Assembly: GCA_015852425.1 (NCBI GenBank)
Contig: JAAAIG010000899.1
Span: forward strand, 1 to 15,179
Reading direction: 5' to 3'
Source: Gryganskiella cystojenkinii
Lineage: Eukaryota > Mortierellomycota > Mortierellomycetes > Mortierellales > Mortierellaceae
Length of the DNA stretch: 15,179 nt
Part shown: positions 1,396-9,528 of the stretch, piece after piece
How positions within the stretch are numbered: the stretch's first letter is position 1
Layout: each line of letters starts with the position of its first letter
Translations under genes and position numbers: made by a program
The notes under the pieces: generated by a model
What the model was told of the DNA's origin: nothing
The model's input: the letters and a program-made list of their open reading frames with translations, nothing else
Database searches by the model: none

Positions 1396-3002
1396 TTAAC
1401 GACGCCTCCTGTACCGAGCCAAAGCAGGTCCAAATACGGCCAAGAAAAGAGTCATCACAATGACCTTGTTCGCTTTGCTTCCAGACGTATGATGCTGTTG
1501 TTTGTACCCTAGGTTCTGTTTGATCCCGTCCCAAAAGACTCGAAAAGTGGATGGTGTTCGATTCTTTTCCAGGGAATGGTTATTGTTTCCGTTTGCTCGC
1601 TGTCGATCGGAGGACAAGAGTTGCTGTGCAGACTCATCACGGCTCTTCAACTCATGAGCGACTTCCTCTTCCTCCTCGGCCTCCTCTTCTTCCGCATCGT
1701 CACCTTCTGTGGCGGCGGTAGCAGCCTGGCGAAGTTCAGAGACAAGAGTAATGATCTTGGAATGCTCATATGGAGGCAAGGAGGGAATAAGTTTGTTGAC
1801 ATTGCGCATACCCTCGGGAACAGCCTTTGTGGAAACTAAGGATATAAAGAAAAAAAGTGTCAAATCAATACATCTGAGCGGTTATACCAATGGGTCTTGA
1901 AAATGGTAACTTGCAAGCGCCACTGCTTCCTTACCGAGCTGAATGACTTTTTCGGGGATCCAGCCTTTCAAATCCGCATCCAGGACCTGGACCAATCGAC
2001 ACTTTGTGGGCTCACCAGGCTCAGGCCCAATGATCTGTCCAGCAACAGCCGTTTCCATGCGCACAATCTTTTCTTTGATGCGCTCGGGCATGGTCGGATG
2101 TTCGATCGTCGAGGTCACATTGCAGTACCGTCCATCACCCAAATCTTTGACGGTGCCCAAGACGACGGTGTCTCTGGAGGCTGTGGGCCACATGCCCTTG
2201 GTGCGGACATACTGAACCTTTGTTCCAGGAGCAATGTCGGCTAGAGTCTTCGCCTCGACACAGAGCGGGTCCCATTCGACACGACGATGGATTTCACTGA
2301 GGAGATCAAATGTGACCGCAGCAGTATTGTTCATGACAGCAATGACCTTGTAGCACATGGGTCGTCCCTTGAACTGATAGACCTCGATCAATGAAGGGCT
2401 CGTCTCCTCAAATACCTTCTCCCATATCGTAGTGTTGTCGATATAGTCCATAAACTTTTTCTCCATGGCGACCAATTCCTTGGCGTAGGGTTGAGCGCGT
2501 GTGGATGAATGTTTCTTCTTTTTGATCAGGGTTGGGGTTGGGGTCGAAGGGGTAGTTGCCTCTCCTGCTCCTGTTGTTGTTGTGGTTCCAGTCGCAGATG
2601 ATTTGCGGACAATGACCTTCTTGATGATCTTTCGCTTGCCTCCTCCCTCGACAGCAGTAGTTTTGGCCAGGGGTGCCGCCTCGACAGCATGAACGGGCAC
2701 CTGAGCAGGGAAGAATCTTTCGCTCAGGTCAGGCAGTCCAAAGATCTTTCTGAAGGCGAGGACAAAGATGAGTTCAAAGAAGACGTAGTGGATCTTGTCC
2801 AGAATTCCGTTCAGGAACACTATCGAGGCGAAGGAAAGAAAAAAAGATAACAACATATTATTACGGATTTGGTTCTTTGTTTCGTTTGGATCCATGACAG
2901 CAATCGACTCTTTTTAAACATACGTTGGTTGACGAGGTAGAGGATGGTATACGGGGTGACGAGCACCAGCATGGCTAGTGGAGATTGAGTCGAGTCTCCC
3001 AT
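1396..3002 (-). CDS. START-domain lipid-binding protein with N- and C-terminal membrane segments
   Basis: The three-exon model is complement(1396..1835, 1935..2819, 2924..3002), 467 aa. The first intron (104 nt) has donor GTATGT and an acceptor ending GATAG. The second (99 nt) has donor GTAAGG and acceptor TATCCTTAG. Both are phase 1, and splicing restores an uninterrupted START C-terminal helix (VIQLVSTKAVPEGMRNVNK). The ATG at 3002 sits in ACAATGG, a good start context. Hydrophobic segments lie at residues 8-29 and 35-50, followed by a lysine- and threonine-rich linker (about 85-135). The START domain spans about 155-345, with WDP near 208-211, RTKGMWPTASRDTVVLG near 232-248 and DLKGWIPEKV near 309-318. 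An acidic run (365-379), a single C-terminal membrane span (about 446-461) and a YRRRR end follow. START domains bind sterols, phospholipids or ceramides in a helix-grip pocket. The ligand and membrane cannot be told from sequence, though both ends suggest tethering, perhaps at a contact site. The family call is firm. Confidence 0.88.
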
Positions 3003-5541: not shown

Positions 5542-8500
5542 CTATAGTACACAGATCAGTTTGTGACTATAATCCTTCCAGTCCAAGACTTGGCACTCCT
5601 TCGAACAGTATTTAGACCGTTTGCACTTTGAGCAAGAATACTTGGATTGGCCTTTTCCGCAATAGTGGCACATATCCACTATTTGTTGCGGAGAGACAAT
5701 GACAGAGTTTGGATCGTCGATTCTGATGATGGGCCTGCCGTCCATGGCTGTTCTAAGATATGGATTGATGACGCTAATCTTTGCTCCAATCGCCAGAGTG
5801 TGTTTTTTGTCGAAGTTGTACAGACTGACCCGCTGCACATTCAAGTTGCTATCCTCTGCAACAAAGGAAATCGACATGCTGTTGTTGAACGGCACCGTGA
5901 TAAGCGTGAGCTCCAGGACAAAACCGTCAAGCACATGGTCTGCAGTGGGGTTGATTTCGTTCAGATATACGGACTTTAGTCCAACCCATGACAGTGGTGC
6001 GCTCTGGCTTTTCGAAGGCTTTGCTGTGAAATTGACCTTGACGTGTTCGTCACTGCTCATGATCTTGCCGTACTCACTAACGACTCGTCTGTGGTTCACA
6101 ATCAGCTCTTTCCTAAATGGATCGGCCAGCTTGACGACAGGTTTTTCCTTGTCCTTAACGAGTCCTCCAATTTTCCGCAGCGGCAGCTCAAGCATCTCTT
6201 TGCTCGTCGACTCGTATGGCAAGAAGAATGGAATCTGCTTTGCCTCTGCGTTCAGCCCCTGTTCATAGTGCCGCGCGATGCTGTCTCTGTCCCTATTCGC
6301 AAAGCTACAGACCCCCAAAGAGTAGTAGGCTTCGGGCACCTTTCTGTGGTCCACAGACGCAACAGATAGGAATTTGGTGTATGCGTCTGTTGCTTGATTG
6401 TTCCGGCCCATTATCCTCAAGGTGGCGGCTTTGTGATATAGGTTGTTCACATCGTTCTTCGAAATGTTCTCAATGCGATTGAAGTCGCGCAGTGCAAATT
6501 CGTGTTTGTTGATGAAGTTGTACAGACACCCGCGAATCTCGAGGAAGAACTTGTTGTTGGGATACTTCTTGATGCATTCTGTCAGAAAGTCAATGTTTTC
6601 GTCGGACTGCATGTTCAGTACAGCATGGCAGATTCTACAGTCCTGGTTGAACGCCAGCTCGTCGATGTTTTCGGAGTGTTTTACAGTGCGGTCACTGTAT
6701 GACAAAAGCAGAAGAACGTGCTTTCGGATGACCTTGTGGATATCGATCGGCATGGGTCCGACAAAGTGTTCCAGCTTGTAGCACATGGCCAGCCGGCCAA
6801 TGAACGACCTTGAATCGTTGTCGAGAACAACAATGTTGCGCCGTGCAATGCTGTGAAATGTATCCATGGCCTGCATATAGTTCAGCACAGCGAAGTACAT
6901 CCGATTGCTAAACTCTGATTTGTCTTTGCGCTCGGCCAACACCTCCAAATCGTACTTGTATCCATTTTTGGTGATTCTGGTGGGCGACGCACGGTCTGAT
7001 TTGTTTTTGATGTTCTCCAAGTCATTCAGCGTTTCCAAGACTTCCGATTTGTCTGGGTATTCATATGAAAGTTTGCGGAAAATTCTCTCTCGGATAGACA
7101 TGTTTTCGAACGGCAAATTGAGCCCCTTTTCCCAATCGATTACGTCCGAGATGTCTGCGTTGCTCTCGAGTGCCATTTGGGCTATTGCTTTCTCTTTAAG
7201 GCGCGCAAGCTTCGAACCCTGCTTTATAGATTTCTCATTCCATTTCTCGGCCTTGTTGATATTTCCAGACGCCAGGTATAGACCGACAAGGTTGTCCATG
7301 GCATTCGGATCGCCATAGTTCAGCGCACATAGAAACAACTGCTCGGCCTGTTTGAAGTTCTTGACCACACCCTCTCCGTTCATATACATAAGCGCTAGAT
7401 TGTTTGCCGATATCCCGCTTTGATGCGAAATCGCCTTCTTGTACCATACTACAGCCAGATCAAGACTTTTCTCCGCAATGCTGCCTTCGTGGTAGCCCAA
7501 TGCAATGCAGTGCTCGGCCTCCTTCACCCCAACGATAGGAGCGTTGTGTTTGTCGAATGCGTCGAACTTGGAGATCTCCAGCAGTAGTTTAAGCGCCTGT
7601 GGGTAGTCTTTGCTGACGCCGTGCCCGCTGATCATGAACAGAGCCAGATTGTACATGCCTTCTGCATTACGCATATCGGCTGCCTGTTTGTAGCACTCTG
7701 CGGCCATGTTGTAGTTTTGATCATCGCGGTATTCGTGGCCGGCCCAGACATGCTCCAGCGCAGGATTGTCGTTGATCAGCAGCCTTTTGATTTCGTCCAT
7801 GTTTTTCATGTCTTTGAACCTCTGTCTGTTTTTCAAACTCAGATCTTTGAGGCTTTGGTCGTTGTCTCGCTCTTGCAGCCCCTTTAGTTTTCTGGCATCC
7901 GATCGCATCTGCCGTATTTCGTCGTTGTTCATATCTAAGCTGAGTGCTTTGTCGAAATGTTTGATGGCCTTGTCGTATTTTTCCAGCGACTCATACGCCT
8001 TTCCGAGCCTGATGTACGCCTTGAGATAATCGGGGTTTAGGTGTTTAGATAGCTTAGCATCCTCCAGGGCTTTGGCGTATTCGCCTAGCTTTAGATAGCA
8101 AAACGACCTGTTGGAGTGCAAAACCGAAAGATCTCTGTCGGAGATGCCCGGAAGAGTGATGGCGTCGGTGTATTTGGTCGCTGCCATTAGGAATTTCTGC
8201 GCTGTTATAAGGTTGTTGCCTTCATGCTTGAGTTCGATCGACTTTTTAACGTTTTCACTTATAATGTACATTTTGGAGTCGCTCGAATGCGAATGTAAAA
8301 TGTCGTCCAGCTCTTCGTCCGTAACGCCTAGGGACAACAGGATGACTTTCAGTTCGCTCCAGTACTGTTGGTACTCTTTAGTGCTGATTTTCTTGTCTGG
8401 ATGGTGGGCAATAAAGTTTCGGATAGGCATTAATCGTTTAAGATTGGCTTGGAACTCGTTGTCTCTGTTGAGATCGGTCATGGTGAAAATAACGTTGAAA

Positions 8501-8844
8501 ATCGTCAGGTCCCATTTTCTGATGTCGCCGCCTTCTAGATACTCCTTCTGAATCTTGCCTACGTGTCGGTATACGTTTAACCCCGCGTTGTTCGTGAAGT
8601 GCTGTCCACACTCAGGCGAGTTGCTCCATGCCACCTTGTACTTGTGTTGCCAACTTTGCTCAAACGCCTTTCTCAGACATTCCGACGCCTTTACAAGCAA
8701 CAGTTCGATCTTGCACCAGTTATAAAATTCTGCAGAATACATGTTGCAGCCTACGTTAGATTGAACAATACAGCTTATCAGTTTACTGTTCAAACCCTGC
8801 CTCAGCTTTTTGCACATGCACATATCTGATAAATGTGTATGCAT
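5542..8844 (-). CDS. HEPN(DZIP3-like)-TPR-Sel1-MYND zinc-finger protein
   Basis: This is one uninterrupted frame. Starting at the ATG at 8844 it gives 1100 aa; an ATG at 8742 (AACATG, better context) would give 1066 aa and still keep every domain. Residues 39-174 resemble the DZIP3-type HEPN domain, with KWDLT (110-114), the Rx4H motif R-N-F-I-A-H (142-147) and the conserved end ISTKEYQQYWSELKVILLSLG. Residues 191-316 form three Hop/STIP1-like TPRs with all five carboxylate-clamp positions (K206, N210, N245, K275, R279). Residues 365-546 carry Sel1-like repeats (AEGMYNLALFMISGHGV; ANNLALMYMNGEGV), and TPR-like helices continue to about 860. A beta-rich region (about 950-1050, with GAKISVINPYLR and IRIDDP) precedes a complete MYND finger with C1059, C1062, C1071, C1074, C1080, C1084, H1094 and C1098. 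A role as a chaperone-linked RNA-targeting or scaffold protein is inference. There are no introns, unlike the other confident genes here. Confidence 0.9.
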   Translation of the reverse strand: MHTHLSDMCMCKKLRQGLNSKLISCIVQSNVGCNMYSAEFYNWCKIELLLVKASECLRKAFEQSWQHKYKVAWSNSPECGQHFTNNAGLNVYRHVGKIQKEYLEGGDIRKWDLTIFNVIFTMTDLNRDNEFQANLKRLMPIRNFIAHHPDKKISTKEYQQYWSELKVILLSLGVTDEELDDILHSHSSDSKMYIISENVKKSIELKHEGNNLITAQKFLMAATKYTDAITLPGISDRDLSVLHSNRSFCYLKLGEYAKALEDAKLSKHLNPDYLKAYIRLGKAYESLEKYDKAIKHFDKALSLDMNNDEIRQMRSDARKLKGLQERDNDQSLKDLSLKNRQRFKDMKNMDEIKRLLINDNPALEHVWAGHEYRDDQNYNMAAECYKQAADMRNAEGMYNLALFMISGHGVSKDYPQALKLLLEISKFDAFDKHNAPIVGVKEAEHCIALGYHEGSIAEKSLDLAVVWYKKAISHQSGISANNLALMYMNGEGVVKNFKQAEQLFLCALNYGDPNAMDNLVGLYLASGNINKAEKWNEKSIKQGSKLARLKEKAIAQMALESNADISDVIDWEKGLNLPFENMSIRERIFRKLSYEYPDKSEVLETLNDLENIKNKSDRASPTRITKNGYKYDLEVLAERKDKSEFSNRMYFAVLNYMQAMDTFHSIARRNIVVLDNDSRSFIGRLAMCYKLEHFVGPMPIDIHKVIRKHVLLLLSYSDRTVKHSENIDELAFNQDCRICHAVLNMQSDENIDFLTECIKKYPNNKFFLEIRGCLYNFINKHEFALRDFNRIENISKNDVNNLYHKAATLRIMGRNNQATDAYTKFLSVASVDHRKVPEAYYSLGVCSFANRDRDSIARHYEQGLNAEAKQIPFFLPYESTSKEMLELPLRKIGGLVKDKEKPVVKLADPFRKELIVNHRRVVSEYGKIMSSDEHVKVNFTAKPSKSQSAPLSWVGLKSVYLNEINPTADHVLDGFVLELTLITVPFNNSMSISFVAEDSNLNVQRVSLYNFDKKHTLAIGAKISVINPYLRTAMDGRPIIRIDDPNSVIVSPQQIVDMCHYCGKGQSKYSCSKCKRSKYCSKECQVLDWKDYSHKLICVL

Positions 8845-9287
8845 CGACACAGTCAACCAAAATCTGCAACAAGCACATCGACTGCGCGGAATACATTGCG
8901 TACTCTAAAAGCACATCGCACAGTGCCGTGTTTGCATCAGATACGCCAGCAGTAGACGGTACCACAGTCAACTCAGAAGCCACGTCCAGAGAGGTTTCTG
9001 GATTACGAAGTTCCCAAGAAAAAAATGCGACTGCTGCAATGCATACGTGTACGCCCCAGATTTCATCGAACATGTCGAGCTACAGCGCCCCGCATTGAAA
9101 GTGCGAATTGTCGCCGAAAGAGAATAATTATGGTGCTTCGCCTTACCTTTCACCAGTGAATATGACAAAATAATGAGATGAGATGAAGGGGGATGAAAAT
9201 GAAACCAGTTGTAGAGATGAACAGGACGAAGACAAAAAATTTCAAGGCGAGGAAAAAAGCGACGGAAAAGGACAAGATGCACTGTTT
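8845..9287. other. 5' flank of the HEPN-MYND gene
   Basis: A TAG stop lies upstream in the frame of the big gene, about 75 nt beyond the 8844 ATG, so the long frame cannot extend further without splicing. A 96-aa minus-strand frame (8783-9073, beginning MFDEIWGVHVCIAAVAF) overlaps its 5' end in another frame. A possible acceptor (CTTGTTGCAG, near 8865-8875) could join an upstream exon, but no donor in the right phase stands out. The region most likely holds the promoter and 5' UTR. Confidence 0.35.
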
Positions 9288-9431
9288 GCCTTTTGCTTTG
9301 CCTTTTGCTTTGCCTTTTGCTTTACCTCTTGCTTTACCTCTTGCTTTACCTCTTGCTTTACCTCTTGCTTTACCTCTTGCTGTGCTTGTTGCTTTGCCTT
9401 TTGCTTAACCTCTTGCTATGCCTCTCGCTTT
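9288..9431. repeat. 12-bp minisatellite, 12 tandem units
   Basis: Twelve consecutive 12-bp units occur without any slip in register: three of GCCTTTTGCTTT (9288-9323), four of ACCTCTTGCTTT (9324-9371), then five diverged units to 9431. The array is in two homogeneous blocks, which suggests two rounds of expansion. Because 12 is a multiple of three, every frame reads as a simple repeat (LPFA/LPLA or CFAF/CFTS on +, and KARG-like on -). The two small + strand open frames that cross it (9183-9545, 9193-9408) have no other support as genes. Confidence 0.9.
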
Positions 9432-9528
9432 ACCTCTGAATTGAACACAGATCATTGTTGCACAAAGATAATTTCAAGGGCACCTGAGGCGAGGTGTGGC
9501 GGTGCATTGCGACATGTCCTCGAAAAGA

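Follow-up and report, generated by a model that had tools for sequence, protein, structure and literature searches.

This analysis concerns a gene on the minus strand of a 15,179-nucleotide stretch of DNA (the window) from the fungus Gryganskiella cystojenkinii, contig JAAAIG010000899.1. Its product carries, in this well-supported order, an N-terminal HEPN domain, a tetratricopeptide repeat (TPR) unit, Sel1-like repeats, a second helical array, an OB-like strand region and a C-terminal MYND zinc finger. The explanation which we favour, although we would give it slightly less than an even chance, is that the whole chain works as a co-chaperone-linked HEPN ribonuclease, combining clamp docking with partner-binding parts and belonging to a family patchily distributed among fungi and animals. 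In such a mechanism, the HEPN domain would pair with a second copy, and the pair would cut RNA through R108 and H113 in a metal-free manner. The first TPR unit would dock the protein on the EEVD tail of Hsp70 and/or Hsp90, while the Sel1 repeats with the second helical array, the OB-like region and the MYND finger would bind clients or recruit partners. The whole protein might thus be a chaperone-linked ribonuclease answering stress or infection.

The minus strand holds an open frame at 8844..5542, with 1,100 codons counted from ATG 8844. An earlier note, made from the letters of this DNA alone, had located the gene at these coordinates, which hold with the strand given as minus; the start which it assumed, ATG 8844, is probably wrong, as relatives point instead to ATG 8742, M35 of that frame. 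Among the 21 relatives listed, the window protein (P0001) included, 19 start at M35 or within a few residues of it, and P0031 and P0042 start later. Because of this agreement, a protein of 1,066 amino acids from ATG 8742 is the probable product. P0011 and P0013 have additional residues ahead of the M35 position, which are unlike the window's upstream residues; the N-terminus of P0013 is longer by 57 residues, and when these were sought in the window, the only convincing match among those listed was at the shared start (GC-x-M). The absence of introns reported previously was borne out for the coding part, since the frame from 8742 requires none, and a 5' intron or an upstream exon ahead of ATG 8742 is possible. 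Just ahead of this ATG, at window positions 8751-8759 (minus strand), CTAAC is followed by GTAG, and these could serve a 5' intron as branch point and 3' splice site. The features of the gene, with residues numbered from ATG 8742, are as follows.

5542..8742, minus strand: whole coding sequence, 1,066 codons and a stop, intronless as read, start set by relatives
8743..8844, minus strand: 34 codons between ATG 8844 and ATG 8742, with no counterpart in the relatives' starts listed; probably 5' leader
8293..8742, minus strand: HEPN domain, residues 1-150 (Pfam HEPN_DZIP3, separate model, VIA-align ranking)
8404..8421, minus strand: Rx4H motif R108-N109-x3-H113, kept in family rows
7858..8256, minus strand: first TPR unit, residues 163-295, with carboxylate clamp K172, N176, N211, K241 and R245
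7120..7800, minus strand: Sel1-like repeats, residues 315-541 (Pfam Sel1, 54 bits, cut-off 30.7; model helices)
6055..6819, minus strand: second helical (TPR-like) array, residues 642-896 (model helices; TPR families in relative P0053)
5689..5985, minus strand: OB-like strand region, residues 920-1018 (model strands; Pfam TTC5_OB below its cut-off)
5551..5670, minus strand: MYND zinc finger, residues 1025-1064 (Pfam zf-MYND, 34.9 bits, cut-off 22.7; zinc ligands)

Profiles of HEPN_DZIP3, several TPR families including TPR_1, Sel1 and MYND exceed their Pfam cut-offs in the window protein, and in this respect the fusion described earlier was correct; it was incomplete in not listing the second helical array and the OB-like strand region. 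A model of the full-length chain (mean predicted local distance difference test score, pLDDT, 83; predicted template modelling score, pTM, 0.48) has HEPN helices at residues 4-149 and, after the TPR unit and the Sel1-like helices, a helical array spanning 642-896; strands follow at 923-1016, and the MYND end closes the chain. The low pTM makes the packing of these domains against each other uncertain.

The assignment of the N-terminus to HEPN_DZIP3 withstood profile comparison, with 30.3-30.4 bits for the full protein and 34.2 bits for residues 1-168 alone (gathering cut-off 27), the alignment covering only positions 72-135 of the 144 in the profile. A fold search with the full-length model returned 50 listed matches which were, by their titles, TPR or designed repeat proteins, and for this reason the HEPN part was modelled separately. 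Its AlphaFold model (pLDDT 88.7, pTM 0.82) has the anticipated helical fold; VIA-align ranked Csm6 and AbiF first and HEPN structures filled most of its top rows, while Foldseek gave no significant match, so that support from the fold is weaker than that from the profile and the motif. The RNFIAH motif, noted before at R142 and H147, corresponds to R108 and H113 when counted from ATG 8742 and occupies the active-site position. Judged by its predicted helical fold and by an Rx4-6H motif with a polar residue after the arginine, the domain is a member of the HEPN superfamily.

Conservation of this motif is wide. The family comprises, by score, 62 proteins (P0001-P0054 and P0070-P0077); with P0054, which matches P0001 only at 486-614, left out, and with ten rows falling short of the motif, 51 covered rows remain, including the window's. 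R108, N109 and H113 are all present in 49 of these and H113 in all 51; in the two exceptions, Q replaces R (P0031), or C replaces R and S replaces N (P0053). When redundancy is reduced to 16 rows below 60% identity, window included, 15 of them retain R108 and H113, whose columns share the highest conservation in the HEPN part with W39, D78 and F27. The HEPN_DZIP3 profile was matched by 37 of 42 family members, which as homologues are not independent trials. Further weak matches in the family were to DUF4559, which we take to be HEPN-like, and to the Swt1-like and RiboL-PSP models, all below cut-off except DUF4559 in P0038. HEPN domains bearing this motif have been argued to be metal-independent ribonucleases (PMC3710099, in the part available), and the part available of a pearl-oyster study gives Rx4H in 194 of 202 DZIP3-like HEPN proteins (PMC9646362). 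Cleavage of RNA by the HEPN part is likely, as a prediction reached by reasoning.

The most specific functional clue lies in the first TPR unit, for which the earlier note went no further than likeness to Hop. It holds the full Hsp70/Hsp90-type carboxylate clamp KNNKR, according to the rule of a three-repeat TPR unit with K5N9-N6-K2R6 (PMC2939883, as far as its available part goes), and by these residues the window protein is a carboxylate-clamp TPR protein. The complete clamp is kept in 36 of the 50 family rows covering it, and the nearest structural neighbours of the unit are the TPR domains of Sgt2, SGT, RPAP3, PP5 and CHIP. With Hop/STI1, CHIP, SGT, PP5 and RPAP3 the window protein shares the TPR fold and all five residues of the clamp, and it adds HEPN and MYND. 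Hop/STI1 is defined by an STI1/DP repeat besides its TPRs. The STI1-type family PF17830, carried by search matches named STI1, is not among the 23 Pfam families found in the window protein at E <= 1, so it is not Hop; the label 'Stress-induced-phosphoprotein 1', which 12 of the 20 named close relatives bear, suits only the TPR unit.

Towards the C-terminus, TPR families match the stretch of relative P0053 (residues 721-784) that corresponds to the second helical array. The OB-like region scored 23.7 bits against Pfam TTC5_OB (cut-off 30) and reached E <= 0.001 in 24 of 42 members, and a profile of this region from nine members had no match at E <= 1 among PDB sequences. The MYND zinc ligands are C1025, C1028, C1037, C1040, C1046, C1050, H1060 and C1064; all eight are kept in 13 of the 16 non-redundant rows, those which reach the C-terminal end. 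Judging by these ligands and by the zf-MYND profile, the window protein is a MYND finger protein. It may be added that P0051, P0052 and P0053 end just before the finger at nearly the same place, perhaps because of an intron at an exon border.

Besides P0001, the family has 24 close members (P0002-P0025; 59-89% identical), and of the named relatives, Mortierella claussenii (Mortierellaceae; 87% identical) stands closest to it in the tree. The 20 named ones come from Mortierella, Linnemannia, Podila, Entomortierella, Modicella, Dissophora and Actinomortierella, genera which we take to be Mortierellomycota, only M. claussenii having been looked up. 'HEPN' occurs in no relative's name among the name beginnings listed; precomputed Pfam lists often include PF18738. 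Distant relatives, some of them fragments, were found in Boothiomyces (Chytridiomycota), the rotifers Rotaria, Adineta and Brachionus (the last in a row without the HEPN part), Hydra vulgaris (two), the gnat Bradysia coprophila and environmental records. The Hydra and Bradysia genes sit on contigs of 54.5 and 12.7 Mb, which makes contamination unlikely. Each search scored only some 8,000 candidates, and absences therefore mean little. The earlier impression of a combination foreign to fungi was therefore half right: the fusion is present in seven genera of Mortierellomycota and in a chytrid, and long relatives exist in animals. Two relatives show further domains. P0023 (Dissophora globulifera) has a WD40 array at residues 1-482 ahead of the HEPN-TPR-Sel1 part, and its residues 483-1434 match P0001 1-979 at 81%, which may reflect a true fusion or two gene models joined in error; the environmental P0056 joins an SNF2-type domain with Sel1, TPR and MYND, and is matched by P0001 in the repeats and MYND.

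The main rival to a ribonuclease is a proteostasis adaptor, a CHIP-like scaffold in which HEPN would bind RNA or only pair, the clamp would hold Hsp70/Hsp90, and the MYND/OB-like end would recruit. This possibility, on the whole unlikely, draws on the resemblance of the TPR unit to those of the co-chaperones named above, and on mean conservation in the non-redundant set, which is higher on average for Sel1 (0.565), the OB-like region (0.565) and MYND (0.666) than for HEPN (0.471). Against it, R108, N109 and H113 belong to the best-conserved HEPN columns, and their wider retention compared with the clamp is a sign of a working site. We hold it less probable still that the protein is a housekeeping factor of RNA processing or complex assembly with no role in defence, comparable to RPAP3/R2TP co-chaperones joined to a ribonuclease, or to Swt1/Las1. 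RPAP3 TPRs are indeed among the best structural matches, and the source assembly (35 Mb in 1,050 contigs) has a single HEPN_DZIP3 match, in contrast to the large expansions in pearl oyster, where 202 DZIP3-like HEPN proteins are given for the diploid genome (PMC9646362, in its available part). Against this reading stand the patchy occurrence among named taxa, though the limited depth of the searches applies here as well, and a variable copy number, Linnemannia zychae (P0020 and P0021) and Hydra (P0035 and P0071) each having two different proteins. It is very improbable that the HEPN profile matched a helical N-terminus by chance, since against partial profile coverage and the Foldseek result stand the matches of most members to the profile, the weak hits to other HEPN models, the conserved R, N and H, and the VIA-align ranking.

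The layout of sensor (repeats), effector (HEPN) and adaptor (MYND) proposed in the earlier note is conceivable. A bolder reading, which we consider improbable, would make the protein a chaperone-switched ribonuclease: Hsp70/Hsp90 held by the clamp would keep HEPN inactive or client-bound, and proteotoxic stress or an overload of viral protein would free it to pair and cut. This would amount to a response like that of Ire1 or RNase L, built from other parts in early-diverging fungi and some aquatic animals and possibly, given the patchy tree, spread by gene transfer.

Trees, rooted for drawing only, show two sides (SH-like approximate likelihood ratio test, SH-aLRT, 99): one with Mortierellomycota, Hydra, Brachionus and environmental rows, the other with Boothiomyces, bdelloids, Bradysia and environmental rows. 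Monophyly of the nine fungal-side rows (P0025 included) against nine animal rows was rejected (approximately unbiased test, p-AU 0.00033), as was a grouping of 11, these nine with two environmental rows (p-AU 0.00052); both tests were made after the first tree was seen, on a quick tree with some long branches. Either an old duplication with losses or gene transfer may account for this history. A viral origin was not borne out: two peptide patterns of the family gave 16 stretches in viral contigs with no confirmed relative, a search limited by the two patterns, and viral structures gave no match at E <= 0.001. A bacterial origin of the whole protein was likewise rejected, as eight of 37 bacterial genome stretches were relatives, all confined to TPR/Sel1 (query 304-535). 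PADLOC defence-system profiles had no match in the four proteins tried. Elsewhere in the window, an adjacent frame at 1882-2895 (minus strand) has a START lipid-transfer domain (81 bits, cut-off 22), a 12-base unit is repeated in tandem 12.8 times at 9285-9437, some 540 bases upstream of ATG 8742, and no RNA family at gathering cut-offs and no tRNA was found.

Animal DZIP3/hRUL138-like HEPN proteins (PF18738) share with the window protein a HEPN domain with Rx4H that is fused to TPRs and ends in a zinc-binding part. The available part of a 2013 survey lists fusions of DZIP3-type HEPN to TPR, Zn-ribbon, RING, NACHT and others in a 'mainly animal lineage' (PMC3710099). Compared with the proteins covered there, the window protein is fungal, has MYND in place of the listed Zn-ribbon or RING, and adds Sel1, the OB-like region and a clamp TPR; these points are new here, the joining of animal DZIP3-type HEPN to TPR and zinc-binding domains being already known. 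A HEPN, TPR and MYND fusion was not found described in the open-access literature of PMC, which is not proof that nothing is in print. The bacterial HEPN ribonucleases AbiF and Csm6, the first-ranked solved structures, are 4-12% identical over the aligned parts, and differ in that the Pfam list of the window protein has no CRISPR-type domain.

We know of no established physiological RNA substrate of DZIP3-type HEPN domains. In animals, these domains are expanded in immune-type proteins (PMC9646362, in the part available). The family described here is easily missed in surveys based on names, because so many of its named close members are labelled as Hop. With an intact Rx4H motif and a predicted chaperone-docking TPR unit in one protein of culturable Mortierellaceae, matched once in the assembly studied here, it may offer a simple system for asking whether such a HEPN domain cuts RNA, which RNA it cuts, and what switches it.
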